Origin: a virus
IMG/VR virus record: IMGVR_UViG_3300030333_008051
Span: 72,440-107,994 of that record
Reading direction: 5' to 3' (one strand)
DNA length: 35,555 bases
The translations under genes were made by a program, and so were the position numbers. Shown here piece by piece: positions 5,160-31,663 of this stretch. The notes below the pieces were generated by a model. That model searched no databases. It saw only the letters and a list, made by a program, of their open reading frames with translations, and was not told the DNA's origin. The stretch's first letter is position 1. The number at the start of each line of letters is the position of its first letter.

Positions 5160-7124
5160 TTATTCTCCTAATTGGATGTAATTTTTGGGATGAAAACCAC
5201 GCCGTAAATAGCGTCTCTTTGATCTGAGATAATTCTCAGCAAAATTTAGTCCATCTTTCTCTAACAATTGCATATACTCTTTACATACCTTCTTTTCGAA
5301 GGTACCAAGCTTTTTAGACCCAGAGTTTTCTCTGGGTGAATTAGTATTATCGGTACTAGCTATTGAGGGGTTCTCAACTACTACTGAAGCGGATTGCTCT
5401 ACTTCAGCTGTATCACCAGTACTGTCTGACACGGTCACCTCAGATTCAGTATCTGAGACTTCTTTTTCCAAAGAAAGTTCTTTATCTACATTTGCGTTAA
5501 GGCTGGAGAGAGCATCTTCGAGTTGCTTCTCAAGCTTCTCAATTCTACTTAATGCATTAGCATAGTCTAATTTCAATTCTTGATCTGCGTTACCTTCGGA
5601 TGTATCCCAACCCATAATAAGCGACTCTTTTTCAAGAGCTTCTTTAGTTAACTCTGGTCCCCAGTTCATATCTGTAGTACAGGATGGTAGGTCCCAGCCG
5701 TTCTTGTCTGACTTTCTACAAACACAAGCTTTTATCTTCTTGTAGAGATCAGATGAAGCATGCTGCTTAGCTCTAGAGAGTGCAGCAACTGCATGCGACT
5801 TGTCGGGTACAGGATAGCTTCTTTCAGGTCCGCAAAAGGTTGATTCTTTCAATCTGTTGCGTTGCTCGGTAGTTAGTGGCTTATCAAAATTTACCACTTC
5901 TTCGAGTACCCGTTCCGCTTCGGTCCCTTCTTCCGTTTTGTCGTTTTCGATTTGGTCGATGTTGTGCGTTTCTTCTTTTTCTTCTTTTTCGTCGCTGGCA
6001 TCGACCTTGTTTTCCACTGTGCCATTTGAAACCTCATTTAGATTTAGTTCTTTTCTTACTACTTCGAGAACAAGATCCGCTAAAGCCTTGATTGAGTCTG
6101 CATCAAAACCACCAATAGGTGCTTCAGCATCCTCCGAGACTTTCTCGGCTTCTACCTCGTCGGAAGCAATAACTTCCTCAGAAGCATCAACAGAAGCAAT
6201 AGCTTCTGTTTCTTCTACTTTATTCTCTTCAGAAGAAAGAACTTCAGAATCTTCAACTGAGACTTCATCTTGCGCAGTATTATCAAGTTGTTCTGACATA
6301 TTCTTCTCCGAAATATTATATTTAGAATCAGTTAAATAAACTGTATGCTTATCTACCTTGATAGATGTAACATCTTCAATACGTACTGAATCTGCTAATT
6401 CCATAGACAGCACTTGGGAAAGATCATCTGCAGGCATATTTACCACTGAACCTTCCAAAACTTCAAACTTTCCAGTGACAAACACACAGATATCATCGTC
6501 ATATATCTTGCCGTGACGATGTTCACAAATTTCACCCTGTGCCCAGTCTTCTTGGCAAACGCTACAAACGTGTCTGTCTGTTGTACTTCCTGCAGAAAAA
6601 GTTATGTATCTTCCGTCCAAGAACTTTTCAATTGAATCTTGATCCGAAATTTTTGCAGTAACTCTCATTCTGCCAAGACCTGGCCACTTCTTTCTTGTAA
6701 GAAGACCATATCTTTTCATTTCATCATAAATTCTCTTTGGATCGTCAGCATCGAATGCTGCCTGTACTTCCATGTAATCGTTTACATCGTCGAAGAACCC
6801 AAGAGCTTCTGAAGAAGTGTCATCCCATTCGCCACCAACAAATCTGCCAATGGGATCATCATGATCATCATGGTTCTTAATGATTGGTTTCGGGTAGGGT
6901 GAGAGTAAGGAATCAATTCCTCTTTGTTGGCCAGCTACAGTATAAATTCTATTATTTATTCTTCTTCCAGAATGACTAAGGTCGTAAGTTACATACAGAC
7001 CTCTTTTTTCTTCATTTCTGTTTAACAAAGAATCGACAATCCCGATCTTCTCTCTTTTTGATAAATCGGAGAAAGAAGGATCAGGATTGATCTTTATATA
7101 GTCTACTAATTTAAGTTTACTCAT
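5160..7124 (-). CDS. Prohead protease fused to scaffold-like region
   Basis: 654 residues. Residues 1-240 look like a herpesvirus-assemblin-type prohead protease: a conserved His region (KNHDDHDDPIGRF, His85/His88) and GRYITFSAGS with Ser177 as the candidate nucleophile. An inserted CxxC...CxH cluster (Cys187, Cys190, Cys200, His202/204) looks zinc-binding. The rest is a long Glu/Asp/Ser-rich linker, then a conserved module beginning STFCGPERSYPVPDKSHA (DUF6582-like), then a predicted coiled coil (KLDYANALSRIEKLEKQLED) and a basic C-terminus. That is how scaffold/core proteins look. The gene overlaps the portal gene by 8 nt. Protease assignment is by motif and context; catalytic residues are inferred. 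Confidence 0.75.
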   Translation of the reverse strand: MSKLKLVDYIKINPDPSFSDLSKREKIGIVDSLLNRNEEKRGLYVTYDLSHSGRRINNRIYTVAGQQRGIDSLLSPYPKPIIKNHDDHDDPIGRFVGGEWDDTSSEALGFFDDVNDYMEVQAAFDADDPKRIYDEMKRYGLLTRKKWPGLGRMRVTAKISDQDSIEKFLDGRYITFSAGSTTDRHVCSVCQEDWAQGEICEHRHGKIYDDDICVFVTGKFEVLEGSVVNMPADDLSQVLSMELADSVRIEDVTSIKVDKHTVYLTDSKYNISEKNMSEQLDNTAQDEVSVEDSEVLSSEENKVEETEAIASVDASEEVIASDEVEAEKVSEDAEAPIGGFDADSIKALADLVLEVVRKELNLNEVSNGTVENKVDASDEKEEKEETHNIDQIENDKTEEGTEAERVLEEVVNFDKPLTTEQRNRLKESTFCGPERSYPVPDKSHAVAALSRAKQHASSDLYKKIKACVCRKSDKNGWDLPSCTTDMNWGPELTKEALEKESLIMGWDTSEGNADQELKLDYANALSRIEKLEKQLEDALSSLNANVDKELSLEKEVSDTESEVTVSDSTGDTAEVEQSASVVVENPSIASTDNTNSPRENSGSKKLGTFEKKVCKEYMQLLEKDGLNFAENYLRSKRRYLRRGFHPKNYIQLGE

Positions 7125-9009
7125 TTTTACCTCTCGGCAGAGAGTTGACTAATGGAGGAATGCTATCTAAATTAACATCAAACATATTTATACTACTATC
7201 CAATATTTCCATACAAGCTTCATGCCCTGTAGTTATTGCTTCTTCAAGGCCTATTAAATTCTCTAAATCTGAATTTAATCCACTTTCCTTTGCCGAAACT
7301 ATAACACCATAGTTGTAAGCTTTACAACTGTACCTATGCAATAAAGAGTCAAATCTCCACTTAATATTATTAAAAACCGAAGTTTTCTTTATATCTGTTT
7401 CTTTTAGTAAGTCAAGTCTGTCTGTTAAGTGTTTATGAACTTTTAAGTATTCTGTCTTAAAGTCGTTGCTTATTCTATTTTTCAATGACAATAGCTCGTC
7501 AGTACTCAAGTTGGTATCACCAAGACCCTCAAGTAATTTCGATTCTACCAAATTTAAACTCTCGGTATAGTGTTTTTCAAGTTTTTCATCAAAATTTGGA
7601 CCACTTTTTTTACCGAATTGATTTTCCGGCATTGCTTGGTTTTCAGACTCTCCGCCACCAAAGATTGAAGACTTAAGTTCTGCTAGTGGCTTCTCAAAAA
7701 GCTCGAAGTAAGTATCGTCCATTTGACCTTCCTCTAGGGGAGGTTCTCCGATTCTCTTTCTTGCTTCTGTTAGCGTAATGAGTTTGTTGGAGAACAGTTG
7801 TATAGCTTGGTTCTCCAATTTCACTTTTACTTCTTTATCAACTGCACCAAACTTAATTGAAACTCGTTTCATTGGGTCGAATGGATCAAACTCGAAACCA
7901 CCTTCAAGCAGAAGCTCATTAAACACTGAGTGCTCGACAAAGATTCTTATAATTTCTTGTAGCGCTTCTACATCTTGAATTGCGCTTTTAGAAAGAACGT
8001 TTGCAGTAGCTCTATTTGCTGTGTCACCTTCACCCATGTCGACGCTTGATACACCTAAGCCAGCAAAGACTCTTTTCTTAAAGTATTCAAGGTATCCATC
8101 TATTCTTAGTGCACGACCTTCAGAGCCAACAGCTTGAATCTTGTGTCTATGATCAGAAACATAGACACCGCCAGCAGGCATATAATCAATTGCATCTCTT
8201 ACAACTTCAGTCTCCTTTTTTCCATCTGGACCATATCTTTCTGGAAAGTCATCAGAACCTACTGTGTAATGAAACAGCGGAAAGAGATTAGACTCGACTA
8301 ACTCTTCTACATTCTCTTCTAGTCTTCTAAGGAGAGCAATGTCGTCGAGTACGGGAAGAAGCTCTGGCGTGCCCATAGCAAAGCCTGGCTTCTTGTTGTC
8401 ATAAAAATGTATTACGTCGTGAGGAAAGAACTCTTTACTTTCTCCAGTTGGAGTTTCTTGAAGTATCTTTTTAATCTCACCATTATTTTTGGTTTTAAAA
8501 TAAAGGGTTTCAAATGGCAGGATAAAATATCCTGCTACAGGATCAACTTCTCTACCTGTTGTAAGAAATCTTCTTTTTCCAGAAGATGCCTTGAAGTTTC
8601 TTGATTTAACCCACATGCAGTTTGAGAAACGAATTAAATCGTAAGCAGTTTCCGCAAGCATAATTGCGAACGGTTTACTAGTTGCAGATTCTATTTCTGC
8701 AATTCTTTGTTTAATATAACTTACATAGGTTTCATTAAGTCCAACAATTTCAAAACCTGAAACTAAAAATCTATTTGCTTTCTTTTTTATAGCTCTGAAC
8801 AAATATCCATCAGTATCTTGAGCAACAGATATTTCTTCAAGATCGTACTCTGGCTTAAACCAGTTACCTCGATGACGCTCTGCATAAGCTAAACTTCTGT
8901 TAGCGACCTTAATTAATCCCGGTTTAGATGGAGATCTTGACTTAGCATCAAAATTCATTTCTTTATCGTAAACTACGTCTAAAGCTATTTTAAACAAATC
9001 TGATTTCAT
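7117..9009 (-). CDS. Portal protein
   Basis: 630 residues, usual length for a phage portal, the dodecameric ring at the unique vertex through which DNA is packaged. Portal-like features include the N-terminal LFRAIKKKANRFLVSGFEIV, PFETLYFKTKNNG, HDVIHFYDNKKPG, the YFKKRVFAGLGVSSVDMG region and the C-terminal LTEARKRIGEPPLEEGQ, which is typical of portals. ATG 9009 has AGGAAT upstream. Location between terminase and protease supports the call. Confidence 0.9.
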   Translation of the reverse strand: MKSDLFKIALDVVYDKEMNFDAKSRSPSKPGLIKVANRSLAYAERHRGNWFKPEYDLEEISVAQDTDGYLFRAIKKKANRFLVSGFEIVGLNETYVSYIKQRIAEIESATSKPFAIMLAETAYDLIRFSNCMWVKSRNFKASSGKRRFLTTGREVDPVAGYFILPFETLYFKTKNNGEIKKILQETPTGESKEFFPHDVIHFYDNKKPGFAMGTPELLPVLDDIALLRRLEENVEELVESNLFPLFHYTVGSDDFPERYGPDGKKETEVVRDAIDYMPAGGVYVSDHRHKIQAVGSEGRALRIDGYLEYFKKRVFAGLGVSSVDMGEGDTANRATANVLSKSAIQDVEALQEIIRIFVEHSVFNELLLEGGFEFDPFDPMKRVSIKFGAVDKEVKVKLENQAIQLFSNKLITLTEARKRIGEPPLEEGQMDDTYFELFEKPLAELKSSIFGGGESENQAMPENQFGKKSGPNFDEKLEKHYTESLNLVESKLLEGLGDTNLSTDELLSLKNRISNDFKTEYLKVHKHLTDRLDLLKETDIKKTSVFNNIKWRFDSLLHRYSCKAYNYGVIVSAKESGLNSDLENLIGLEEAITTGHEACMEILDSSINMFDVNLDSIPPLVNSLPRGKNE

Positions 9010-13092: not shown

Positions 13093-15297
13093 CTATTTCT
13101 TTTTCCAACTTCTGGTACCCCTTTTACCTCTCCGTGGACCGGAGCGTTGAGGGGCACTAAATTGGTTTGTTTGATTACTTATAGACTCCAATATACTTGG
13201 AGTTTCCTTTTCTTTACGTACTATATCACCACGTCTTCTTCTTTCTCTACTTCCGCCTTTTAGTAAGCCTTGCTTCCTGTATTTTTCTTTTACTTCTCTG
13301 TCTGACTCAATACTTCCATCACCTCTCATAATTCTCATTATGTCTAAAGTTCCTGGAAATCCTGCCTTTCTTAGAGCTTCGGCATTGGCCTCAACATCAT
13401 CATCTGGCGATCTATACCAACCGGTGTCTTGCCTTTTTCTTCTTTCTACCAGTCCTGGCTGAGAATAAGGTATCTTGTTCTTACTATATACCGATTCTTC
13501 TAAAGAAAGTCCAGCTAAAGCTAACATCATAGCATCAAGTCTGTGATCACCTATGCTGTTTTTTTCCATTCCAAATACTGGTTTATTATTTGTTGGATGT
13601 CTTCTGAGAACAACATAGTTCATTAATTGTTTTGTTAATATATCGTCTGAATGAGGGTAGACGAAACGGCCGTCTTCAATAATTCTTACTGCATTTTCAA
13701 CAAGATAGTGCTTTCCTGATTTTACTATATCTTGCCCACTAATTGGATCTTTCAGCTCAATATTTCTTGAGAAATTAAAAGATACTAACTTATCTCCAAG
13801 CTTTGCAGTTTCCTCATCCATAGCAGTTTTATTTTTCTTAGACCGCATCCTATGTGAAAGCAATCTTAAATCTTCTATAATAGTATGCCCGTAGCCTTCA
13901 TCAGCATATATGTAATCTGGTTTCCACTTGTAGTTTAATCTTATTACTTCTTCAACCCACTTTTTTGCAGAATATTCGGAAGCTCCAACATTGTGAGCTT
14001 CTAAAGCAATCCACTTTCCTTGTGATGCTGAATAGCCGGCAACAAAAAACTCTGTGCCTGCGTTCTTGTTCCAGTCGATCCCTATGCACTTAATTAGGTT
14101 TAGTGAATCTGGTATTCCAACTTTAGTTCTTATGTAGGTAGAATCAACCATTCCTCCGTATTCATAGTCACCTCTAGCTTGGTGTATCCAGTCCATTTTG
14201 AATACACCGCTTCCACTATCAACAAACTGAGCCATATACTCTGCAGTAAAACCTTCTGAAGTACTTTCCGCTTCAAGCTCTGCCTTAATTTCGTTCCAGT
14301 GGGGCAATACAGTAGATGGGTAATAATCTTCTTTATAGTCTGGTCTTTCGCTACACCATTCGAAGAACTTACCCTTTTTTCCAATTGGGGTAGAAGTCGC
14401 CACCATGATGGTGTCTGATCTGGTAAGAAGAATTGGTGTAACAACCTTCTCTAAGATTTCTTCAGGTATCATGTCCATTTCGTCGAGATAGATGATGTCT
14501 GCACTTTGACCACGAATTGTACCACCACCAGAACCATCTGCTTTTACGCCAAGGCCAGAAACAAAGCCAGATATCTTAGCTTTGCAATTATCATTTAGTG
14601 TGAACTCCATTCTAAAGTATGGACTCTTTACATAGAGTCCATTTGAAGATGCAGTTGTAATAAAAGAAGACAGCTCTTCGTTTCTTTTAAGAAGCTTTTC
14701 CATTTCGTTAAAAATGTTTGTAAGCTGAGCTTGGTATGGAGTAACAATCATAATCTCAGGGCCAGCATGTATGTCTTGACCGTCTGAGTTCCTACCCTTC
14801 TTTAATCTTAGGTTGTATATGTAATATATAAGTTTAAGCGCAATAATAAAGGTTTTTCCAGAACGTCTACCTTCTCGAACTACAGTTCTTTTAGAAGTGC
14901 ATCTCATTTGCTCTTTTTGGTAGTTCCTAATGTGCCAGTTATCATCTTCATCGTCAAAACCAAACATAAGTTCTGCCCATGCGACAGGATCTATAGTTGA
15001 GAGAAGAATTTTTATCGCACGATCTACCGGTATATCTGATTGTACTGCAATTTCTTTTGCTTTTTTACTGGAACCTTTTGGTAAGCCACGCTTAATAAAA
15101 TCACAGTTTACGTTGAACTCTCCGTATTTTTGAACTTGTCTTATTTGACAATTTATACAAGTTCTATGTACGTCTGTTCTGAGTTGGTATTTTTCGGCAA
15201 ACTCTTCTATTACGCTTTCTTCTAAAACAGCGTCTGGGTCTTGATGTGTATAGCCGTACTGATTTATTTTATATAAAGGCTTTAATCTACTATCCAT
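13093..15297 (-). CDS. terL: Terminase large subunit
   Basis: 734 residues; the ATP-driven packaging motor and nuclease. Visible motifs: Walker A REGRRSGKT (141-149), Walker B IIYLDE (Asp272, Glu273), coupling motif TSTP (301-304). The RNase-H-like nuclease has Asp408 in CIGIDWN, Asp466 in YIYADEG and Asp584/Asp588 in SIGDHRLDAM. An N-terminal extension carries CxxC plus a third Cys (47, 50, 65), possibly a metal site. The C-terminal ~90 residues are very basic. ATG overlaps the stop of the upstream gene (TAATG). Confidence 0.95.
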   Translation of the reverse strand: MDSRLKPLYKINQYGYTHQDPDAVLEESVIEEFAEKYQLRTDVHRTCINCQIRQVQKYGEFNVNCDFIKRGLPKGSSKKAKEIAVQSDIPVDRAIKILLSTIDPVAWAELMFGFDDEDDNWHIRNYQKEQMRCTSKRTVVREGRRSGKTFIIALKLIYYIYNLRLKKGRNSDGQDIHAGPEIMIVTPYQAQLTNIFNEMEKLLKRNEELSSFITTASSNGLYVKSPYFRMEFTLNDNCKAKISGFVSGLGVKADGSGGGTIRGQSADIIYLDEMDMIPEEILEKVVTPILLTRSDTIMVATSTPIGKKGKFFEWCSERPDYKEDYYPSTVLPHWNEIKAELEAESTSEGFTAEYMAQFVDSGSGVFKMDWIHQARGDYEYGGMVDSTYIRTKVGIPDSLNLIKCIGIDWNKNAGTEFFVAGYSASQGKWIALEAHNVGASEYSAKKWVEEVIRLNYKWKPDYIYADEGYGHTIIEDLRLLSHRMRSKKNKTAMDEETAKLGDKLVSFNFSRNIELKDPISGQDIVKSGKHYLVENAVRIIEDGRFVYPHSDDILTKQLMNYVVLRRHPTNNKPVFGMEKNSIGDHRLDAMMLALAGLSLEESVYSKNKIPYSQPGLVERRKRQDTGWYRSPDDDVEANAEALRKAGFPGTLDIMRIMRGDGSIESDREVKEKYRKQGLLKGGSRERRRRGDIVRKEKETPSILESISNQTNQFSAPQRSGPRRGKRGTRSWKKK

Positions 15298-21727: not shown

Positions 21728-21759
21728 AGAGCCCTAATGCAGGGCTCTTCTCTTTTTTT
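21728..21759 (+). terminator. Intrinsic terminator followed by TTTTTAATGG
   Basis: AGAGCCCT / AGGGCTCT pair 8 bp around AATGC, followed by a T-rich tract with seven T. AATGG follows at once. Confidence 0.9.
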
Positions 21760-21783
21760 AATGGTCATCATAAGGTGGCTGTA
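21758..21783 (+). repeat. Leader repeat B, copy 1
   Basis: AATGGTCATCATAAGGTGGC and the following TGTAAC recur at 24533-24558 with only two adjacent changes (AA to TT). Each copy directly follows a terminator T-tract and leads into a gene. Read from the ATG, both encode seven codons (MVIIRWL, MVIIWWL) then TAA, but no ribosome site precedes them. Confidence 0.75.
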
Positions 21784-22154: not shown

Positions 22155-22189
22155 GATGCTCACTGTATAGTGGGCATCTTTTTCTTTTT
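22155..22189 (+). terminator. Intrinsic terminator followed by TTTTTAATGG
   Basis: GATGCTCACT / AGTGGGCATC, 10 bp with one G-U pair around GTAT, then TTTTTCTTTTT and AATGG. Confidence 0.9.
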
Positions 22190-22217
22190 AATGGTAACTA
22201 ACATAGGAGGTGTTACC

Positions 22218-22473: not shown

Positions 22474-22498
22474 GAGGGGCTTCGGCCCCTCTCTTTTT
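22474..22498 (+). terminator. Intrinsic terminator (TTCG loop) followed by TTTTTAATGG
   Basis: GAGGGGC / GCCCCTC around the stable TTCG loop, then TCTTTTT and AATGG. The stem and loop are almost identical to those of the next terminator at 22951. Confidence 0.9.
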
Positions 22499-22522
22499 AA
22501 TGGCAATTAAGCCATACAACAT
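22494..22522 (+). repeat. Leader repeat A, copy 2 (copy 1 at 21246-21272)
   Basis: TTAATGGCAATTAAGCC followed by ATACAACATT matches TTAACGGCAATAATGCC-ATACAACACT at 21246-21272. Both can fold a small GGC...GCC hairpin and both lead into a Shine-Dalgarno hairpin. Copy 1 does not follow a terminator in this window. Confidence 0.7.
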
Positions 22523-22925: not shown

Positions 22926-22950
22926 AGCCCTTGTGGTACGACAGTAAAAG

Positions 22951-22976
22951 AGAGGGGCTTCGGCCCCTCTTTTTTT
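22951..22976 (+). terminator. Intrinsic terminator (TTCG loop) followed by TTTTTAATGG
   Basis: AGAGGGGC / GCCCCTCT around TTCG, seven or more T, then AATGG. Confidence 0.92.
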
Positions 22977-22981
22977 AATGG

Positions 22982-23440: not shown

Positions 23441-23450
23441 GGAGTATGTG

Positions 23451-24476
23451 ATGTTCTACATTCACATTGAAGATGTAGGTAAGTTCTGGTCTGACCTGAA
23501 CGCCAACCTGCAACCGACTAGCTCTCTGATCGATGTTTTCATCGTGATGATGGCTATCTCCGTAGTAGCTACAATCTGTATTCAGATTGGGCTCATGGTG
23601 GTAGAAGCAAAGCAACGCAAGTTGTGGGAATCTATCACAAACAACACACAAAGCAACGTCCAGGAGGACACAATGGTTGATAATAACCAAAACATGGCAA
23701 ACGATAAGTCCAACCACGATAGCAAAACTAAACGCGAACGATTCGAAAGCTGGATTGCTCGTCGCGAAGAGAAAGCAAAACGCAATCTCAGAAAGCGATC
23801 GAGAGATGAGATGAACGAAATCGACACTCAATCCAATGAAAAGATCGCCAAGATCGACAGCATGATTGCGGAATTCAAAGCTGAAATCGAGAGTCTTGAG
23901 GCTGAAAAGCAGCAAGAACCTCGGAATCGCACAGAGCTCCTCAAGGATGTCAGAGGTCGGCATGATATCGAGCTCGAGAAGATTGTTGAAGCAAACAACA
24001 TCCTTCGGAGATTCGGTACATCCGTCTTCGACAGGATTGATCGAGTCAAATTGGCTGTTCGCAACAAGGCACTTGAAGTCTTGGGTGTTAAATCCGAGAT
24101 TTCAGAGCTCAAGGAGAGAATTGCTCAACTTGAACTGGCTGTTGATCCAACCAAGGTTCCTGAACCTCAGGCTGCTACTCAAGCAGATGAAGAACAGGAA
24201 ACCGAAGTGGTGAAAGAGCCAATGATTGTTCTGCCTCCAAGAGAAAATCTGTTCTTCGTACCAGAAGAGCCGGTTGTCTCAGTTGAAGCAACAGAAGATC
24301 TCGAATTCAGAAAAGCTGTTGAAGAACTGCTCGAAGAAGCTGATGCTTTGCGGGAGAAAGAACCCGTCAATGCTCTCGAGATGCTTCGGAATCATCCGAT
24401 TGCAAAGAAGTACTCCATTCCTGCAAAAGAGCGGTATGATCGAACCAGAAAGGCTTACTTGCGATTGATTTCGTAA
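23451..24476 (+). CDS. Membrane-anchored coiled-coil protein with possible internal start
   Basis: 341 residues from ATG 23451 (GGAG six nt upstream; a nearer ATG at 23446 is followed at once by a stop). A membrane segment covers about 26-51. From ~80 to ~235 the chain is Lys/Glu/Arg-rich coiled coil (KIAKIDSMIAEFKAEIESLE), followed by a Pro/Glu-rich linker and a helical C-terminus. A strong AGGAGG (23663-23667) stands before in-frame Met75 (23673) in the same hairpin form as at 21273. Two products, a membrane-bound and a soluble 267-residue form, are therefore likely. Scaffold or tether role is only a guess. Confidence 0.7.
   Translation: MFYIHIEDVGKFWSDLNANLQPTSSLIDVFIVMMAISVVATICIQIGLMVVEAKQRKLWESITNNTQSNVQEDTMVDNNQNMANDKSNHDSKTKRERFESWIARREEKAKRNLRKRSRDEMNEIDTQSNEKIAKIDSMIAEFKAEIESLEAEKQQEPRNRTELLKDVRGRHDIELEKIVEANNILRRFGTSVFDRIDRVKLAVRNKALEVLGVKSEISELKERIAQLELAVDPTKVPEPQAATQADEEQETEVVKEPMIVLPPRENLFFVPEEPVVSVEATEDLEFRKAVEELLEEADALREKEPVNALEMLRNHPIAKKYSIPAKERYDRTRKAYLRLIS
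23657..23675 (+). promoter_or_regulatory. Internal ribosome site inside the 341-residue gene
   Basis: GTCC-AGGA-GGAC hairpin with full AGGAGG, 5-6 nt before in-frame ATG 23673. The stretch GTCCAGGAGGACACAATG closely repeats GTCCAAGGAGGACATAATG before the gene at 21291. Confidence 0.6.
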
Positions 24477-24495
24477 GTGGCTGACAGCTGAGATA

Positions 24496-24534
24496 GGGCC
24501 TCTCACCTTCGGGTGGGGGGCCCTTCTCTTTTTT
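24496..24534 (+). terminator. Intrinsic terminator (TTCG loop) followed by TTTTTAATGG
   Basis: GGGCCTCTCACC / GGTGGGGGGCCC around TTCG with G-U pairs, then TTCTCTTTTTT and AATGG. Confidence 0.9.
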
Positions 24535-24558
24535 AATGGTCATCATTTGGTGGCTGTA
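24533..24558 (+). repeat. Leader repeat B, copy 2
   Basis: Matches 21758-21783 except for two adjacent bases. See copy 1. It ends about 18 nt before the start of the zinc-ribbon gene. Confidence 0.75.
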
Positions 24559-24576
24559 ACAACACAAGGAGAAAAC

Positions 24577-24912
24577 ATGTCAAGATTTATTCAACACATC
24601 TGCAGGAATCCTTCCTGCGGGGGTACAGAAGCAAAATGGTGTGGACCAGCACTGTTCTGCACAAGCTGCGATGCGTGGCAGAGGGATAAGGTCAGTCTTG
24701 CAAAGAAGAGCGACCCTACACCTCGGATCACAAGAAAGCGCATTTGGACTGACATCAAAAACCCTAGAAGGGTTGCGACTGTTGAGTTCGAGTGTGGTGC
24801 TTGTGGAGAGATGAACGTGACTCCCAACTTCAAGAAGATTGAAGAAGATGAGCGCGTGAAGTACCAGGTTCAATGCTTTGAATGTTCAACCAAGGGCTAT
24901 GTCAGCCCTTAA
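24577..24912 (+). CDS. Zinc-ribbon protein
   Basis: 111 residues from ATG 24577 (AAGGAG upstream). Two metal-binding modules: Cys9 and Cys14 with Cys28 and Cys31, and Cys73/Cys76 with Cys100/Cys103 (FECGACGE ... VQCFEC). A basic linker (RITRKRIW) lies between. Zinc ribbons of this size are common in transcription and nucleic-acid binding factors. Because a phage RNA polymerase gene lies 1.2 kb downstream, an accessory transcription role is possible, but nothing in the sequence proves it. Confidence 0.75.
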   Translation: MSRFIQHICRNPSCGGTEAKWCGPALFCTSCDAWQRDKVSLAKKSDPTPRITRKRIWTDIKNPRRVATVEFECGACGEMNVTPNFKKIEEDERVKYQVQCFECSTKGYVSP

Positions 24913-24923
24913 AGGAGGATTCG

Positions 24924-25115
24924 ATGAACAGATGGATCAGATTCTGGTCAATATCAGATGAGTGCGGTTATGTGTACGGCACTCCAGACATGATTGAAGA
25001 TTCAGCTGAAGAGCTGGGTTTTGATGAGCTGGATGGTTGGGAGTATGCTAGTCCCGCAGAGATTTCTAAGCTGAAAGGCTTTGAACGCTCGAAAGAGTGG
25101 GTAGTTCAGTTGTAA
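24924..25115 (+). CDS. Small acidic protein, unknown
   Basis: 63 residues from ATG 24924 with AGGAGG upstream, 11 nt after the zinc-ribbon gene and without a terminator between, so the two form a pair. Aromatic N-terminus (MNRWIRFWSISDECGYVYG), then acidic helices. No family recognised. Confidence 0.65.
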   Translation: MNRWIRFWSISDECGYVYGTPDMIEDSAEELGFDELDGWEYASPAEISKLKGFERSKEWVVQL

Positions 25116-25135
25116 CCAAGAACAGCTGCAGTCAA

Positions 25136-25175
25136 GAGGAGGGACCTTACGGGGTCCCTCCTCTCTTTTCTTTTT
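25136..25175 (+). terminator. Intrinsic terminator followed by TTTTTAATGG
   Basis: GAGGAGGGACC / GGTCCCTCCTC, 11 bp around TTACGG, then TCTTTTCTTTTT and AATGG. Confidence 0.92.
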
Positions 25176-25204
25176 AATGGCAACAACAACAAAAGGAGTA
25201 TGCC

Positions 25205-25462
25205 ATGTCAACAAAAGTAGATAGACCAGAAAACTTCACGAAAGAGCAGTTGATTTCAATAGCTAAAGAGAACATTGAACTCTACACCATGATGGCGGGT
25301 TGTGGTCACCCGCATGTTAATGCTTCAGAGTGTAAGGATTTGGTCCGAACATGGAAGCTTGTCTTGCAGGCAGCTCAAGCTGGACTGCTGTACCAAGACA
25401 TGAAGGAGGGCAGCAACATGAAGTACGAAGTTTGGTGTGCTTGGGCTGAACAACACGCATAG
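25205..25462 (+). CDS. Small helical protein, unknown
   Basis: 85 residues from ATG 25205; AAGGAG upstream lies in the loop of a TGGCA / TGCCA hairpin that reaches the start codon. Helical, with GCGHPHVNASECKD, a Cys/His set that could bind a metal. No family recognised. Confidence 0.65.
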   Translation: MSTKVDRPENFTKEQLISIAKENIELYTMMAGCGHPHVNASECKDLVRTWKLVLQAAQAGLLYQDMKEGSNMKYEVWCAWAEQHA

Positions 25463-25472
25463 TTTGGCTTCA

Positions 25473-25511
25473 GGGGTAGGGACTTAGGTCCCTGCCCCAC
25501 CTCTCTTTTTT
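25473..25511 (+). terminator. Intrinsic terminator followed by TTTTTAATGG
   Basis: GGGGTAGGGAC / GTCCCTGCCCC around TTAG with one G-U pair, then ACCTCTCTTTTTT and AATGG. Confidence 0.92.
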
Positions 25512-25560
25512 AATGGCGAAAGCAATACTGCCTAGCCAAACAACAACACAGGAGAATACC

Positions 25561-25968
25561 ATGAACGGTATCTTAACACACATGTCAGGAATCGGTTACA
25601 TTCAAGCAAGCAGGAAGGATGGTGAACAACCGTGCACCGTCAGAAACTTCAAGAATGGAGGGTCAATTGCACAGATGCGTATCAGCAGTGGCGGCTGGTA
25701 CTTCACTGTGAAGTTTGATCCCTCTCTGATCGGGAATGACACCATGGCTCTGATTGCTGGAGAGCGAGTCTACTTTGAAGGCTTTCTCAAGACAGACCGG
25801 TACACCAAGAAGGACGAAACAAAGTTCTCGTACTTCAACTATGTGAAAGTTACTCGACTTGTGTATGGTGAAGAAGTTTCTTCAATAGTGCTTGATCTGA
25901 AAGAAAAGGCACTTCAGGAAGAGATGGATGCACTGAAAGCAAAGAAAGAAGCACTTTCGGCTAAGTAA
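25561..25968 (+). CDS. OB-fold-like protein, candidate single-stranded nucleic-acid-binding protein
   Basis: 135 residues from ATG 25561 (AGGAG upstream; the start codon lies in the loop of an ATACC / GGTAT hairpin). The central part alternates beta strands as in OB-folds: GWYFTVKFDP, then GERVYFEGFLKTDRYTKKDE, then FSYFNYVKVTRLV. That is close in style to SSB proteins. A Lys/Glu/Ala-rich helix forms the C-terminus. It immediately precedes the RNA polymerase gene, separated by a terminator. Nucleic-acid binding is inferred from pattern only. Confidence 0.6.
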   Translation: MNGILTHMSGIGYIQASRKDGEQPCTVRNFKNGGSIAQMRISSGGWYFTVKFDPSLIGNDTMALIAGERVYFEGFLKTDRYTKKDETKFSYFNYVKVTRLVYGEEVSSIVLDLKEKALQEEMDALKAKKEALSAK

Positions 25969-25983
25969 TCCGAAGAGACCAAA

Positions 25984-26039
25984 GGTAGCCCTCAGTATGG
26001 AAACATGCTGGGGGCTACCCCTCTTTTCTTTTTCTTTTT
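25984..26039 (+). terminator. Long intrinsic terminator before the RNA polymerase gene
   Basis: A 16-bp stem with a few G-U pairs (GGTAGCCCTCAGTATG with CATGCTGGGGGCTACC) closed by a GAAA tetraloop, followed by three T-rich runs to 26039. The downstream base pattern is CGGCG instead of AATGG. Confidence 0.9.
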
Positions 26040-26125
26040 CGGCGTATCGCAACGACGCGCTACTGGTACGACCTATGGTGGTAAGTCGACCAGGTTTATC
26101 CATACCACTAACACAGGAGGTAACC
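26040..26125 (+). promoter_or_regulatory. 5' leader of the RNA polymerase gene with competing hairpins
   Basis: TGGTACGAC (26064-26072) can pair with GTCGACCA (26085-26092) over 8 bp with one bulged A. Alternatively GTGGTA (26078-26083) can pair with TACCAC (26103-26108), ending just before AGGAGG (26115-26120). The two helices overlap in space and would compete. An attenuator-like or autoregulatory leader is possible; this is inference from pairing only. Confidence 0.4.
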
Positions 26126-29038
26126 ATGGAACCTAACAACACCATGGATACTCGGCATCCAATCACGGATGCCATTGGAAGACTCAGGCAGTGGTCACTG
26201 TCTGTTGCTACTGCAGCGGCAGCTTATGTTGTCGTGCCTTGCTTTATGCTTTATCGCACTAAGCAGGGTAAATACAGGGTGAGGCCACATTCCGACATCA
26301 AGGAACGTGGTCTCTTCGAGCAGGTACATCCGGATCTTCATCCGGCACCTGTAGTTGGACTCAGGAATTGCCTTGCGCCTAATAAGCGTGGGTCTCGTCC
26401 TGATATCCCTGAGTGTGTCTTGGACGCATTCGTTCAGGCTGGTGCTGTTGCCTTTCGAGGCAAGCATCTAGTCTGGACTGGGGGATATGGAGACAATCCG
26501 TCTCCGTTCAATGTGATCGCGCAAACCTTCACTAGCTTCAAAGCTGGTGTTGGCTATGTTCCATCACTGTTCTCTGCATATCATGCAGGTATGGTGTGGA
26601 GTGGGGTTCCCTATGCTGTGGACTATGTTCGCGGTGCTGATGGGGAGCCTGCGGGATCAGATGGTGGTGGTGTGTACATCTGTGACGAGAACAGTCCCGT
26701 CTGGCAAGCCCTTCGTGGTAAGTCAGGTCAGGTTCGTATCTACGATCCTGAGAAGGGGATATTCGCAAAGGGGATGCTCTCTCCTGCGGATAAGTCGTGC
26801 TTGCCTCCAGGCGTCAATGCATGGATCGTTATTGATCCATCGATGTTCAAGGCAGGTGCACCTGTTACCGTTCCAGAAGAGTCTGGACTATTGAGTCGAG
26901 GGATGAAGGAGTTCTATCCTACAAGGAAAGACTTCTTCGTTGATGCGTGTGATCTGGGTATCAGGGACCTATATGGTACCTGTGCACTCGGAGTAATGCG
27001 TGTCAAGAAGGCTGGTCGTACCAGTCTGACCCCAGGCGCATTGGTTCGTCTCAATCCGGAAGCAGGACCTCTTGCTAAAGAGTTGCTAGAGAAGAATTTC
27101 TCCAAGTGGCTCAATGGTGGAGGTATTGCCAATACTGTTGGCAACCTGATCGAGCAGGAACGTCAAAACGGACTAGCTGAACTGCGGAATGTCTCTGCTA
27201 TCTATGCGATGGCAAATAAGATGTTCGAAGAAAAGGGACTTGACCTTCGGGTTGATCCCTTGGCAGTGAAGCTGGTTCGTGACCAGGTTCTGGACAATGT
27301 GGGACGTAAGTTCTACAGGTTTGCAACCGGGTGCGGCGTCAAGGGTTCTAACCTTGTGGGTAGGATTGACAATTCCGTTCCTTACGGAGTTGTGATTCTC
27401 CCTCCTGGCCCGTGGCGACATGGCGAAGAAGTAGTGGTGTGGCGTCAGCCCATCGTTACTTCAACTGGTGTGGGAAACCTCACAGCTTGGGTACTGTCTG
27501 ATCCTAACTGTCCCAGTGACATTAAGGAGAGGTACGGTTACCTTGATGGCTGTGATGAGTTCATCGCCAATGAACTGGTCATTACTGTTCAGTTCGTAGG
27601 TGATAATGATGGAGACGACTTCGGCGTCTCTGGAGATCCACTCCTGGTGAAGATGTTCAAAGAGCATGCTCGTTACATCTTCGAGCCTGGTGAGCTGTTC
27701 ATGATTGAAGGGTTGCAAGAGCGTGGTATACGCTCCAAGACCAAGATTCATGACAGCAAAGTTGGATTGGGTCAGGACAAACGTGGTCCTATTGGTATCC
27801 AAACCAACATCAGCCTTGCAGGTTGGGCTCTTTCGCGTGAGCGTGTCATCCGTTCGATGATGCGTGCAATGCAAACCAGTGTCGATCAACAGAAGAAGGA
27901 TTTACCAAATCCCGATTATACTGTCGATGCTGATAGAAAGACCTGGCACAAGGTTGAAATCCCAGGACATCCAGGACAGTTCGCCTGGAAACCAAGTGAT
28001 GCTATACTTGCTGAGGATATGGAAGATGGAGGGGGTTACCCTGACATCGGAAAGCTCCTCAAGTGGGTAAAAGGTGAACTTGGTTCTACGCTGAAAGATG
28101 CACTGCCGTGGAACAAGCGAGGCAAAAAGCTGTCTCCCCAAGATCTCAAGCGTGAACCTATCACGCCAGAGGTCAGTTTGGTGGATATAGTCTACAACCA
28201 CTTCCTCACCTTGGTGAAGGAGTCGGGAGTAGACTTGTCTGACACTGGGGAGATGCTGGAGGGAAGTGATTTGCTGGAAATCCTTGAATGGAAGACTGGC
28301 AAGAACTTCAGCATTTCAACAGCTGACCCAGCAAGTTCTTGGTATCGAGCACTGATCGCTACTTCTGGTCTACAGAAGTATGAGAGCAGTAAAAAGCAGA
28401 TTCTGGAGATGTACAAGTCTCCAGCGTCTTCAGATGCTCGTGACAGGAACTACCAGCTTGCCGCTGCAAAGGAGCAGCTCATCTCTTCGTTGAGTGAGTT
28501 GACTGTGGAGGAGCGGCTTACGATCTGGATCACTGAGTGTGAAGTGGGAAACCACGAACGGGCTTATCGTACCGTTCTGCTCGGTGACAATGAGATCACT
28601 AAGCTGTTGGGTCTTGAAGACCTTGGCGGTTGCACCTTTATGGATGACAACTCTGCTGAGTTCCTCAAGAGAGTAGCTGAGGCAATGGAGGCTCCTCACG
28701 AGGAGCTTCTGCTGCATCGCTTCGGTGATGCAGGTGCCGCAGTACTTTCCGGCTATGAGTACATACGAGAAGGAGATCAGATCAGTCGGCGTCACGATGC
28801 TGAAACGCTGAACTCTCGGCATACAGAGCTTTGCGGAGCTCCGTTGCTAGAGTGTGATACGTGTAAGAAGCGTGCTCGCAAACTGCTGATCAACCGGTAT
28901 CGTTGGACTCCTCCTGGGTCTATGGGTGACTTTGTCATCTCTAAGACCTCGGAGATCAACGGCATCCTCGGAACTAGTGAGATGCAGGAAAAGATTCGTC
29001 GGATCCTTGCTCCTCACTATGAAGAGAAGAAGTGGTAA
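26126..29038 (+). CDS. Single-chain two-barrel (double-psi beta-barrel) RNA polymerase
   Basis: 970 residues from ATG 26126 after AGGAGG; the frame is open 129 nt upstream but across the terminator, so that part is not used. Key motifs: WRQPIV (Arg440-Pro442), the RxP motif ahead of the active site; FVGDNDGDDFGV with Asp493, Asp495 and Asp497, the DxDGD metal site; GPIGIQTN (554-561); and MRAMQTSVDQQKKD with Asp587 and Lys590. The order and spacing match QDE-1/YonO/crAss gp66-type polymerases, where G-x-I-x-x-x-H/N and AVDxxK follow DxDGD. A Cys cluster near the C-terminus (LCGAPLLECDTCKK) may bind zinc. An archaeal PolD-like polymerase is the main alternative, but PolD has only two of the Asp. 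It should transcribe phage genes. Confidence 0.85.
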   Translation: MEPNNTMDTRHPITDAIGRLRQWSLSVATAAAAYVVVPCFMLYRTKQGKYRVRPHSDIKERGLFEQVHPDLHPAPVVGLRNCLAPNKRGSRPDIPECVLDAFVQAGAVAFRGKHLVWTGGYGDNPSPFNVIAQTFTSFKAGVGYVPSLFSAYHAGMVWSGVPYAVDYVRGADGEPAGSDGGGVYICDENSPVWQALRGKSGQVRIYDPEKGIFAKGMLSPADKSCLPPGVNAWIVIDPSMFKAGAPVTVPEESGLLSRGMKEFYPTRKDFFVDACDLGIRDLYGTCALGVMRVKKAGRTSLTPGALVRLNPEAGPLAKELLEKNFSKWLNGGGIANTVGNLIEQERQNGLAELRNVSAIYAMANKMFEEKGLDLRVDPLAVKLVRDQVLDNVGRKFYRFATGCGVKGSNLVGRIDNSVPYGVVILPPGPWRHGEEVVVWRQPIVTSTGVGNLTAWVLSDPNCPSDIKERYGYLDGCDEFIANELVITVQFVGDNDGDDFGVSGDPLLVKMFKEHARYIFEPGELFMIEGLQERGIRSKTKIHDSKVGLGQDKRGPIGIQTNISLAGWALSRERVIRSMMRAMQTSVDQQKKDLPNPDYTVDADRKTWHKVEIPGHPGQFAWKPSDAILAEDMEDGGGYPDIGKLLKWVKGELGSTLKDALPWNKRGKKLSPQDLKREPITPEVSLVDIVYNHFLTLVKESGVDLSDTGEMLEGSDLLEILEWKTGKNFSISTADPASSWYRALIATSGLQKYESSKKQILEMYKSPASSDARDRNYQLAAAKEQLISSLSELTVEERLTIWITECEVGNHERAYRTVLLGDNEITKLLGLEDLGGCTFMDDNSAEFLKRVAEAMEAPHEELLLHRFGDAGAAVLSGYEYIREGDQISRRHDAETLNSRHTELCGAPLLECDTCKKRARKLLINRYRWTPPGSMGDFVISKTSEINGILGTSEMQEKIRRILAPHYEEKKW

Positions 29039-29053
29039 CCACTGCCTGATGTT

Positions 29054-29097
29054 GAGGAGGCCCCGTTTCGGCGGGGCCTCCTCTCCTTTCTTTTTTA
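29054..29097 (+). terminator. Strong intrinsic terminator after the RNA polymerase gene
   Basis: GAGGAGGCCCCG / CGGGGCCTCCTC, 12 bp around TTTCGG, followed by T-rich tract with six T and ATTGG. Confidence 0.95.
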
Positions 29098-29177
29098 TTG
29101 GTGAAGTTGGTACGACTCCGCGATGGCGGACAAAACTAGCGAACCACGACAATAAACTTACCAGGGGGGGAGTATAC

Positions 29178-29210
29178 ATGACCCCTTTTAATTTGAACGA
29201 ACAAAACTAA
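29178..29210 (+). CDS. Possible 10-residue leader peptide
   Basis: ATG 29178 follows a GGGGGGG-AG run placed as a Shine-Dalgarno and opens a 10-codon frame (MTPFNLNEQN). The 190 nt between the terminator and the next gene hold nothing else convincing apart from a TCCGC / GCGGA hairpin (29117-29130) next to TGGTACGAC. The peptide may be chance. Confidence 0.25.
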   Translation: MTPFNLNEQN

Positions 29211-29287
29211 CCCTAATACCTACCAACAACTAACTAACAGACCCTACAAAAGGGTGCTGGCGCACCCACTATTTGGTGGAGGTGAAG

Positions 29288-29473
29288 ATGAATAACCCGT
29301 CTAGAAAAATCGAATCCTTCTTTGTTAGATTGGCACTCTTCTGCATGCTTACTATATGCTTTGCAGTGGGAAGTGTAGCTTACACAATACAATGGATCTG
29401 GGATGCGGGGACTCCGCTACCGCTACCTTGTGGTAGTCAGAACATTCATGGGGAGTATGGGAACTGTGATTGA
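29288..29473 (+). CDS. Small single-pass membrane protein
   Basis: 61 residues from ATG 29288 (GGAGGTG upstream), preceded by a GGGTGC-TGGC-GCACCC hairpin without T-tract. One strong hydrophobic segment at about 12-36 (VRLALFCMLTICFAVGSVAY), then a short hydrophilic tail with two Cys. The end overlaps the next gene by 17 nt. The layout (small membrane protein overlapping a second one) recalls phage spanin or holin pairs, but no lysis gene is adjacent. Confidence 0.65.
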   Translation: MNNPSRKIESFFVRLALFCMLTICFAVGSVAYTIQWIWDAGTPLPLPCGSQNIHGEYGNCD

Positions 29474-29621
29474 AATCATCGGTGGATCTACTTTGTTTGT
29501 GTTGGCTTTGAGCTTGATCTATGTGGGGCCACCAATACTTGCGTTCATAATAGCATTTCCAATAATGTTTGTGTGCGATTGTATCGGGGGGATAATCAAG
29601 CCTTCTTCAGAGAACGATTAG
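29457..29621 (+). CDS. Small hydrophobic membrane protein
   Basis: 54 residues from ATG 29457; GGGGAG lies immediately before it, too close for an ideal ribosome site. ATG 29448 is an alternative adding three residues. Almost entirely hydrophobic, two likely membrane segments (STLFVLALSLIYVGPPILAF, then IIAFPIMFVCDCIGGII). Overlap with the upstream gene suggests coupled translation. Function unknown. Confidence 0.5.
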   Translation: MGTVIEIIGGSTLFVLALSLIYVGPPILAFIIAFPIMFVCDCIGGIIKPSSEND

Positions 29622-29645
29622 GGGCGCTGACGCGCCCCCTTTTTT
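29621..29645 (+). terminator. Intrinsic terminator (TGAC loop)
   Basis: GGGGCGC / GCGCCCC around TGAC, then six T and CTGGCTGG. The stop codon of the preceding gene lies at its foot. Confidence 0.92.
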
Positions 29646-29676
29646 CTGGCTGGTAACTGTATCAGTCACTCTCCTG

Positions 29677-29726
29677 TGTTGTTGCAAGGGGAGGGTCTCA
29701 TCGTGGGGCCCTCTCCACAACGACAA
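29677..29726 (+). promoter_or_regulatory. Structured leader before the 90-residue membrane gene
   Basis: GGGGAGGG (29690s) pairs with CCCTCTCC around 13 nt, extended outward by GTTGT / ACAAC. No T-tract follows, so it is not a terminator. It may stabilise the message or regulate translation of the gene at 29749, which lacks a clear ribosome site. Confidence 0.4.
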
Positions 29727-29748
29727 ACTTTTACCTGGACTTCAGCAC

Positions 29749-30021
29749 ATGGCTACTAAAAAGATGGAAGCAGCACCTACTCCCTTGCCGGATTGGGTAC
29801 TCGCCGTAGTTGGGCTGGGTGTAGTAGCATGGCTGCTCTATACTCTCCCTATCCTTGACATTCTCTCAGTCTTCTTCACTTTCTTTGTGATCCCAGTACT
29901 TTTCATTTCTTGTCTGTGTATTGGTTCCTTGGGAACGTTCAAAGCCATTTCTAGTGGATGGAATGGTGGACTGGACCAGATTCGCAATAGAGTTGCACAA
30001 AAGATGGCTGTTGCGAGCTAA
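29749..30021 (+). CDS. Small membrane protein
   Basis: 90 residues from ATG 29749. Two hydrophobic segments at about 16-35 (WVLAVVGLGVVAWLLYTLP) and 37-60 (ILDILSVFFTFFVIPVLFIS), then an amphipathic C-terminus. No clear Shine-Dalgarno. No family recognised. It stands alone between two TGAC-loop terminators. Confidence 0.6.
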   Translation: MATKKMEAAPTPLPDWVLAVVGLGVVAWLLYTLPILDILSVFFTFFVIPVLFISCLCIGSLGTFKAISSGWNGGLDQIRNRVAQKMAVAS

Positions 30022-30028
30022 ACCTAGA

Positions 30029-30053
30029 GGGGCCCTGACGGGCCCCCTTTTTT
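30029..30053 (+). terminator. Intrinsic terminator (TGAC loop)
   Basis: GGGGCCC / GGGCCCC around TGAC, then six T and CCGGCTGG, a downstream sequence shared with the terminator at 29621 (CTGGCTGG). Confidence 0.92.
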
Positions 30054-30104
30054 CCGGCTGGATAGCCATACTTGTAAAACCTTCCGTTCTGGAGAACTTG
30101 TAAT

Positions 30105-30605
30105 ATGCTCGATGATATTAAAGCAGCGATTGCTGCCGCAACCGATGACCAGGTGAAAGCATTTGGTCTTACCTCTGAGCGTTTCAAAGAAGCGTTCAAT
30201 CCTCAAACTCGTCGTGATGGCAGTGTGCAGATTAACATTGCCAACCTGAAGAGCGACGACATGAATGACACTCTGAAGACTCAGCTTCTGTTGGGACTTC
30301 ACACTGTGTTGACTGCTGCTGAGATTGAATGCAGTATTTCTCACGCTTCTCGCCGTACTCTTATGGTGAAGAATGATGCTGGGAACATTGAAGAACAAAC
30401 TCACTGGGTCGCTTGGCCTTGTGTGTGGGTGAACTCCAACTCTACTGCAGCTGCTGAGTCTAAGAAGACTCAAGCTGAAGTTGCTGAACTCCGTGATCAG
30501 GTGACTAACCTTACCTCGAACATGGCAGAAATGCTGAGCCTCATGAAGGCTCAAGCAGAAGGCACTAAGACTTCTTCCAAGAAGTCTGGAACTCCTGTGC
30601 CTTAA
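30105..30605 (+). CDS. Protein of unknown function with C-terminal coiled coil
   Basis: 166 residues from ATG 30105, with GGAG about 12 nt upstream. An Ala-rich helical N-terminus (MLDDIKAAIAAATDDQVKAF) is followed by a globular alpha/beta part (QINIANLKSDD..., HWVAWPCVWVNSNS) and a coiled coil at ~120-155 (AEVAELRDQVTNLTSNMAEM) with a Lys/Ser/Thr-rich end. No family recognised. Confidence 0.7.
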   Translation: MLDDIKAAIAAATDDQVKAFGLTSERFKEAFNPQTRRDGSVQINIANLKSDDMNDTLKTQLLLGLHTVLTAAEIECSISHASRRTLMVKNDAGNIEEQTHWVAWPCVWVNSNSTAAAESKKTQAEVAELRDQVTNLTSNMAEMLSLMKAQAEGTKTSSKKSGTPVP

Positions 30606-30617
30606 ACTGAATGAACT

Positions 30618-30657
30618 AGTCCTCTTGTAGATGAAAATCTATGAGAGGACTTATTTT
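30618..30657 (+). terminator. Intrinsic terminator with double stem
   Basis: AGTCCTCT / AGAGGACT with an inner TAGAT / ATCTA, followed by TATTTT. Located just after the 166-residue gene. Confidence 0.85.
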
Positions 30658-30679
30658 CCCTTCCACTATAGGAATACCT

Positions 30680-30760
30680 ATGACAATACCTGCTCTAATC
30701 ATATGGGTGATACTATGGGGTGCCGCTACTATGATAAATAGTTGGGTAAACTATAGGTAA
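30680..30760 (+). CDS. Possible 26-residue membrane peptide
   Basis: ATG 30680 with AGGAAT upstream, coding a hydrophobic peptide (IPALIIWVILWGAATMINSW) that would form a single membrane helix, ending in a basic NYR. Small membrane peptides are common in phages. No homologue recalled. Confidence 0.45.
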   Translation: MTIPALIIWVILWGAATMINSWVNYR

Positions 30761-30773
30761 GAGAACGACTCTC

Positions 30774-30866
30774 CCCCCGACAGGGGGAAGTCTCTCAAGA
30801 ATGAGAGAGTGCAGAGAGTTGAAGGAAGTCGAAGACTGGGAATAAATCTTTACCCCCGACAGGGGG
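30774..30866 (+). repeat. Two copies of a CCCCC-GACA-GGGGG hairpin
   Basis: Identical 14-nt hairpin core at 30774-30787 and 30853-30866 within ~80 nt. The first sits in a longer GACT...AGTC stem followed by CTCTC / GAGAG; the second forms a terminator. Confidence 0.8.
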
Positions 30867-30876
30867 TACCTTTTTT
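30851..30876 (+). terminator. Intrinsic terminator (GACA loop)
   Basis: TACCCCC / GGGGGTA around GACA, then CCTTTTTT. Confidence 0.85.
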
Positions 30877-31005
30877 AGAAAACTGAAGGTTTTGTACAAA
30901 AAAAGTTCTATCTAAGGAAAAAGATAGAAAAAACCCTTCAATAAAAGTCTCCACCGGAGCAAAAAACAGTCTTTTCGGTCAAAAACCGGAAATACGTGAA
31001 CCTAA

Positions 31006-31029
31006 AATCCGCTTGCGCGGATTATTTTT
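31006..31029 (+). terminator. Intrinsic terminator
   Basis: AATCCGC / GCGGATT around TTGC, followed by ATTTTT and GGAGG. Confidence 0.8.
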
Positions 31030-31209
31030 GGAGGTAGGCATTAGTAGGTAGGGTCTAACTGACCTCTTTTGAGTAAGTGACCGCTAATAAAGCTTGCCAT
31101 TACGTAAACAGGGGTTGCTTTACACCTCTCCACAATAAGCCAAGGGATAGTCACACTTGGCAGAAGTAAAGTAACGTGATCTATTCAATGGAATGATTGA
31201 AAGTGTCGT

Positions 31210-31265
31210 GGGGCTGAGAGTCAGGATAACTGACGACACAGTCTGGCTCTCAGTCCCTTTTCCTT
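31210..31265 (+). terminator. Intrinsic terminator with inner hairpin
   Basis: GGGGCTGAGAG pairs with CTCTCAG-TCCC; inside is TCAG / CTGA. TTTT-CC-TTTT follows. It would end an RNA starting near 31030-31110. Confidence 0.75.
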
Positions 31266-31441
31266 TTGCAAAAAATAACTTGATACGTGTCGAAAGTCAT
31301 GGTAAAGTCCCTCACTGTAAGCTTCTACCCCAGAAGGCTGTACAATAGGACGAAACAGTTGGTGTTGACTCACCTAAGCCATCGAGACTGTGTTATATCA
31401 AGGAAAATATAGGAAAACAGCGTTCTAAGGATAGATCATCA

Positions 31442-31487
31442 GAGGAGGTTCATAGTTTGACCAGCACCTTTAAGTTCACCTCCTTTT
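31442..31487 (+). terminator. Probable intrinsic terminator
   Basis: AGGAGGT / ACCTCCT around a 28-nt loop, followed by TTTTCTCC. The loop is long, so this is less certain than the others. Confidence 0.6.
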
Positions 31488-31569
31488 CTCCCCAAAACTT
31501 GCTAAACTGGCGGGTATAGCCAACCTTAACGGCTATAAATGTTCGATATAACTAGACTTTCGAACAGTC

Positions 31570-31616: not shown

Positions 31617-31663
31617 ACTTAACCCCATAAAAAATCAAAATGCATCCCCCAGGAGCTGAAACT

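Follow-up and report, generated by a model that had tools for sequence, protein, structure and literature searches.

A single-polypeptide two-barrel RNA polymerase predicted in the early gene block of a tailed phage

Introduction

The structurally closest phage enzymes to the protein described here are gp64 of P23-45 and gp62 of P74-26 (8f72, 8f5m), single-chain two-barrel non-virion RNA polymerases (nvRNAPs) encoded in an early gene block. On an RNA-DNA scaffold, gp64 elongates RNA; it is missing from virions, and the genes it transcribes are the early ones and part of the middle ones (PMC10770324). P23-45 also carries a virion RNA polymerase fused to the tape measure, and a passage of the same paper states that many viruses encode two two-barrel RNA polymerases (PMC10770324), so that the pairing of a virion with a non-virion enzyme has precedent. 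A 2007 study of phage 0305phi8-36 placed orf99 in PF05183, assumed its activity to be DNA-directed, and put it on a monocistronic transcript of the early arm (PMC2147016). YonO of SPbeta is a single-chain DNA-directed phage RNA polymerase of about 100 kDa with a catalytic Asp triad (PMC5467207); it acts on late prophage genes. Gp66 of crAss-like phages is likewise a single-chain two-barrel phage RNA polymerase and represents a virion enzyme (PMC10770324). The polymerases of phiKZ and AR9 also possess a catalytic core of double-psi beta-barrels (DPBBs) but are composed of several polypeptides. In QDE-1 and the eukaryotic RDR enzymes (PF05183), which belong to the context of RNAi, barrel B precedes barrel A. 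In the QDE-1 family, a VDxxK-type helix follows barrel A.

Here we analysed a stretch of 35,555 nucleotides, referred to as the window, which comprises positions 72,440-107,994 and makes up the final third of a 107,994-bp IMG/VR virus record. By enzyme identity, a 970-aa protein encoded in the window is almost certainly a two-barrel RNA polymerase, and its closest precedents are QDE-1, P23-45 gp64 and 0305phi8-36 orf99 rather than crAss gp66. It is an already known kind of polymerase, mainly because of the precedent of orf99. 0305phi8-36 shares the structural lineage of the window phage, and both orf99 and YonO are likened to the window protein by their published descriptions.

Results

The polymerase gene and its genomic context

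The polymerase gene and its immediate flanks comprise the following features:
26126..29038, + strand: coding sequence of the predicted single-chain two-barrel RNA polymerase (970 aa), identified from open frame, Shine-Dalgarno sequence, homologs, AlphaFold2 model and Foldseek
26115..26120, + strand: Shine-Dalgarno sequence AGGAGG, read from the sequence; most homologs are preceded by an equally strong one
25984..26019, + strand: intrinsic terminator hairpin upstream of the polymerase gene
29054..29083, + strand: intrinsic terminator hairpin downstream of the gene, delimiting a monocistronic unit

Translation of 26126-29038 yields 970 amino acids without an internal stop. Mechanical ORF calling places the start further upstream at 25997. 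However, the start at 26126, as given in the preliminary description, is the correct one, because a perfect AGGAGG lies just 5' of this ATG and the longer frame would begin within the terminator hairpin, which covers its extra stretch. Within window positions 20000-35555, 45 terminator-like hairpins were counted where 13 were expected, which gives the impression that most early genes of this region are transcribed singly and end in a terminator of their own.

The same description had spoken of a tailed phage bearing structural genes, and terminase large subunit (terL), portal and tail sheath genes were all found. Two of them serve as landmarks here:
13093..15297, - strand: terminase large subunit, in the divergent late operon (PF03237, 6e-13; phrog_2, 3e-31)
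7117..9009, - strand: portal protein (phrog_9232, 7e-52)

The polymerase gene is divergent from the late operon and belongs to the early gene block, outside the structural operon. Every one of the 13 records with a homolog has this arrangement: terL is on the other strand and the polymerase gene is found 10-20 kb upstream of it, with the distance measured across the contig ends in two cases. The separation is 10.8 kb in the window phage and 10-11 kb for two distant forms. By terminase, the isolated relatives include Moorella phage MTATph1, Acinetobacter phage ME3 and Bacillus phage KLEB27-3; ME3 owes its terminase, portal, capsid and sheath annotations to homology with 0305phi8-36. Two other genes of the window were observed in passing. 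A 1133-aa protein adjoining terL (16256-19657, - strand) has a staphylococcal-nuclease domain at aa 841-949 and, by eye, a DnaQ-like DIET start at its N-terminus. A 171-aa protein (33152-33667, + strand) matches the fungal tRNA ligase phosphodiesterase domain (PF08302, 5e-8), and a role in RNA repair is possible from this similarity.

Homologs of the polymerase

Searches with the window protein against Pfam, NCBIfam, PHROGs, PDB sequences, 50,697 phage records and a peptide scan of viral contigs returned chance-level matches only. In Pfam there was no match at E values up to 10, so the protein falls below the PF05183 cut-off. A degenerate DNA pattern for GDNDGDDF likewise found nothing in viral contigs. 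Homologs were reachable only via phage relatives that had first been found by terL: the terminase search gave 51 relatives, and the window protein detected homologs in 13 of 45 terL-related records. Among relatives without a homolog, several contigs end short of the expected position, although this does not hold for all (e.g. G028). Profile searches of viral contigs added four new contig names, two of which represent the same gene, and two contigs binned in marine metagenome-assembled genomes (MAGs) carry homologs. The homologs of the 13 records and of these two contigs show about 20-25% identity. The MAGs holding these phage contigs (L125, L126) are labelled Gemmatimonadetes and Gammaproteobacteria; the binning may be a hint at the host or may be an error.

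One homolog (L085/L093) matched the Pfam RdRP family PF05183 with an E value of 5.4e-12 and 45.6 bits, compared to a cut-off of 23.8. The match spans aa 290-609 and ends just beyond DDDGD; the other homologs gave weak matches to this family. A PDB search with the matching homolog as a single sequence yielded chance matches only. A profile match (A1/A3) to 5ey5 (LBCATS-a) was rejected as a chance match that falls outside the active site. The more distant forms are a clear one in G026 (2161-aa frame, L158:1972-8331), with DSDGD, GPTG and IQxSIDRQKK, and a doubtful one in G014 (2179-aa frame with DNDGD, L157:3975-10502). Both ORFs are giant (about 2120-2175 aa), occupy the same genomic position and show altered DxDGD contexts, and the motif array of G014 looks eroded.

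Conservation of the catalytic motifs

The four motifs named in the preliminary description were located by translation at exactly the residues it had given, namely R440-Q-P442, D493-N-D-G-D497, GPIGIQTN at 554-561 and V586-D-Q-Q-K590. The list held for barrel A and the bridge helix, to which all four belong, but it had missed a second barrel with the lysines K215 and K242, which is present as well. The catalytic region is thus laid out as follows:
26594..27022, + strand: barrel B (beta-like DPBB) region, aa 157-299, with Q202-V-R, K215 (FAKG) and K242; model strands from E157-165 to E297-299, K215 and K242 invariant; the DPBB-B assignment is a likely one by analogy with gp64 and QDE-1
27344..27631, + strand: barrel A (beta'-like DPBB) region, aa 407-502, from alignment and model, pLDDT mostly 80-92
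27443..27451, + strand: RxP motif R440-Q-P442, R and P invariant in 14 sequences
27602..27616, + strand: metal-binding DxDGD, D493-D497, three Asp and the Gly invariant in 14 sequences
27785..27895, + strand: bridge-helix-like segment GPIGIQTN...VDQQK, aa 554-590, with G554, P555, G557, Q583, D587 and K590 invariant; aligns to IQxAVDRQKRD of gp64

A DxDGD string alone is weak evidence, because six ORFs of more than 300 aa in this phage record carry one; conservation was therefore tested and carries the weight. The alignment comprised 14 sequences with 18-25% identity to the window protein, and about 36 of the 970 columns were invariant. Six residues that had been named beforehand (K215, K242, R440, D493, D495 and D497) all fall in invariant columns, for which the chance probability is about 2e-9. 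Also invariant are Q202, G216, P442, G496, G554, P555, G557, Q583, D587 and K590. The invariant set consequently consists of the barrel-B lysines, which precede DxDGD by about 250-280 residues, the RxP motif, the metal triad and the bridge helix, in the order found in single-chain two-barrel RNA polymerases. Near the C-terminus, a CxxC pair (C910-C913, window 28853-28864) is invariant and is preceded by a mostly conserved His; a small zinc site is possible at this position.

Gp64 has the same QVR...WKG, RxP, DYDGD and IQxAVDxQKRD blocks as the window protein when the sequences are read side by side, while it differs in length (616 versus 970 aa), host and lineage. In four separate comparisons, the bridge-helix block of the family profile aligned to gp64 residues 406-433; outside the bridge helix, the pairwise score of the profile against gp64 was not significant. 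The profile also touches QDE-1 at DxDGD.

Predicted fold

AlphaFold2 run on the single window sequence gave a useless model (pLDDT 36), so the 14-sequence alignment was needed; with its 14 rows the model reached a pLDDT of 72.1 and a pTM of 0.70. The barrels were assigned from the strand list of this model together with the Foldseek match, and the bridge helix corresponds to H572-588, C-terminal to barrel A. A structure search had been proposed in the preliminary description as the check on its family assignment. Run with Foldseek against the PDB, it returned QDE-1 (2j7n) as the best match (E 3.6e-10, probability 1.00), rather than PolD or an unrelated enzyme, followed by the P74-26 and P23-45 nvRNAPs (8f5m, 8f72; E 4e-7). 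Among the 50 matches listed, all 11 with E <0.001 were QDE-1 or a P74-26/P23-45 nvRNAP, the large subunits of multisubunit RNA polymerases were weak and placed lower, and PolD was absent. Among viral models, Foldseek matched A7XX94 (P23-45 gp64), an 'RNA dependent RNA polymerase' of Podoviridae sp. ctxqo3 and several unnamed proteins. The top PDB matches had global TM-scores of 0.24-0.46 and an rmsd of about 12-19 A; because this global agreement is loose, it is the core that is established, and not the clamp or the termini.

The structural match to QDE-1 and the homolog above the PF05183 cut-off together support the link to the two-barrel RNA polymerase family. Of the relatives that had been suggested (YonO, QDE-1 and crAss gp66), QDE-1 was borne out, whereas crAss gp66 was not among the 50 PDB matches listed. 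QDE-1 itself is only about 12% identical to the window protein, and its N- and C-terminal parts differ. Translation and model place both barrels in one open frame, in agreement with the single-chain form that had been set against the phiKZ-type enzymes; a single chain of about 1000 aa is not unusual for the clade of this polymerase.

Discussion

Nature of the enzyme

Our overall reading, which we consider very probable, is that of a phage-specific single-polypeptide two-barrel RNA polymerase that is produced early and would transcribe later genes. The chain would run from barrel B with its two catalytic lysines through barrel A, which holds the DxDGD metal site and RxP, to the bridge helix. 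Expression of the enzyme would fall early in infection, with its gene forming a separate monocistronic unit in the block that is divergent from the late operon. Most likely it would be a DNA-directed, non-virion polymerase that uses phage-specific promoters to transcribe later phage genes, in the manner of P23-45 gp64. Taken by itself, DNA-directed non-virion transcription is a likely function.

The main alternative is that the enzyme has the activity of the eukaryotic RDRs and copies phage or host RNA instead of phage DNA. PF05183, the nearest named sequence family and the sole curated one that was reached, comprises RNA-templated enzymes, and QDE-1 is the best structural match. However, QDE-1 itself is described as an RNA/DNA-dependent RNA polymerase and the structurally closest phage enzymes, gp64 and gp62, transcribe DNA (PMC10770324); the related phage enzyme YonO is DNA-directed (PMC5467207), and Hardies et al. 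judged an RNA-templated role in a DNA phage to be unprecedented (PMC2147016). We therefore regard RNA-templated synthesis as unlikely. A different job for the same fold, as a primase or a PolD-like DNA polymerase, is conceivable in that both barrels occur in PolD too (PMC10770324), but the bridge-helix block and the RxP pattern fit RNA polymerases and PolD does not appear among the 50 PDB matches listed, which leaves this function very improbable.

The six large ORFs with DxDGD might suggest that the motifs arose by chance, or that they belong to a calcium-binding loop of the EF-hand type in some unrelated early protein. The invariance of six catalytic residues in 14 homologs and the strong fold match render such an origin extremely improbable. 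The EF-hand reading was also rejected on the motif itself, as the glycine at loop position 6 is missing in the window protein and most homologs. Finally, an inactive, degenerate polymerase could have been retained for DNA binding or regulation. Every known catalytic position is identical even among deeply diverged homologs, in contrast to most of the protein, and we consider a loss of activity highly unlikely.

A hairpin-associated element between early genes

A candidate site for the RNA polymerase was found upstream of its gene, where TTTTTAATGG follows a hairpin at seven positions:
21755..21764, + strand: TTTTTAATGG, copy 1 of 7, after hairpin
22185..22194, + strand: TTTTTAATGG, copy 2
22494..22503, + strand: TTTTTAATGG, copy 3
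22972..22981, + strand: TTTTTAATGG, copy 4
24530..24539, + strand: TTTTTAATGG, copy 5
25171..25180, + strand: TTTTTAATGG, copy 6
25507..25516, + strand: TTTTTAATGG, copy 7

These copies lie within 4 kb on the early strand, with a hairpin immediately 5' of each; the rest of the 108-kb record contains one. Several divergent relatives, with no more than about 25% identity between the polymerases, likewise have the element between early genes on the polymerase strand. Across seven genomes or contigs, 24 copies were found on the polymerase strand versus 1 on the opposite strand, and shuffled sequences gave 0-0.5 per sequence. The 45 nt upstream of the element had a mean folding energy of -22 kcal/mol, compared to -8 kcal/mol for random stretches, and a start codon with a Shine-Dalgarno sequence lies downstream in 19 of the 24 cases (median 44 nt). 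Hairpin and element also occur together at L125, L126, L093, L096, L097, L188, L008 and L018. The element is not universal, since neither G039 nor the searched stretches of G041, G040 and others contain it; the upstream region of the polymerase gene of the window phage has no exact copy.

From its sequence context, we read the combination of hairpin and TTTTTAATGG as a putative terminator plus start site. It may also be a terminator alone, or be used by the host RNA polymerase. TGGTACGAC was considered as a promoter and rejected; there are four exact copies in the record, one of them within the polymerase gene on the other strand.

A possible second polymerase at the tape-measure position

Outside the window, the record encodes a 1796-aa protein (G000 54740-60130, - strand; L004:14740-20000 and L005:1-130) directly before a hub-like M23-peptidase protein of 3388 aa. 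In 0305phi8-36 the tape measure occupies this place, and gene order suggests that the 1796-aa protein is the tape measure. The family is present in 11 of 28 related records, and the three Asp of a DxDxD triad are invariant across 11 aligned homologs, among few invariant residues. The positional equivalent in ME3, ME3_36, has GGDHDQDQ. That of KLEB27-3, gp034 (L162:35003-42307), which was deposited as a structural protein, has NRYPTINQSTIQ and then LKADYDGDFLST, with NRYPT...ADYDGD; its sole Pfam match, RNA_pol_Rpb1_2, is sub-threshold (E 0.015) and falls exactly over the NRYPTINQSTIQ-LKADYDGDFLST stretch. By these motifs, gp034 looks like an unrecognised RNA polymerase domain in an isolated phage.

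No DxDxD was found in the three large tail proteins of MTATph1, and no convincing barrel-B lysine block was seen in the 1796-aa protein. A PDB profile search with its C-terminal 667 aa found nothing, and HHalign gave no significant score for the family against gp96, gp64, ME3_36 or KLEB27-3 gp034; the best alignments against gp96 and KLEB27-3 gp034, not significant as such, place DxDGD on DxDGD. We regard the 1796-aa protein as a candidate virion RNA polymerase of the P23-45 gp96 type, an identification that is about as likely as not. A joint scheme, in which a tail-borne polymerase, a non-virion polymerase and a shared hairpin-TTTTTAATGG element serving as terminator and as start site for one of them act together, is tentative, with the balance tilting slightly against it.

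Implications

The polymerase adds a deep branch to the group that links phage RNA polymerases with the polymerases of eukaryotic RNAi, a branch with strict conservation of the catalytic residues and hardly any other similarity, and its aligned sequences can be used to ask what a two-barrel RNA polymerase cannot do without. None of the isolated-phage proteins P23-45 gp64, ME3_36 and KLEB27-3 gp034 is named a polymerase in its deposited record, and the annotation gap for such polymerases is real. In the hairpin-TTTTTAATGG element there is a specific candidate site for the enzyme. If the protein at the tape-measure position were a polymerase as well, fusion to the tape measure, as reported from phages of the P23-45 type, would extend to contractile-tailed phages, which would suggest that an RNA polymerase carried in the tail is a broader strategy.
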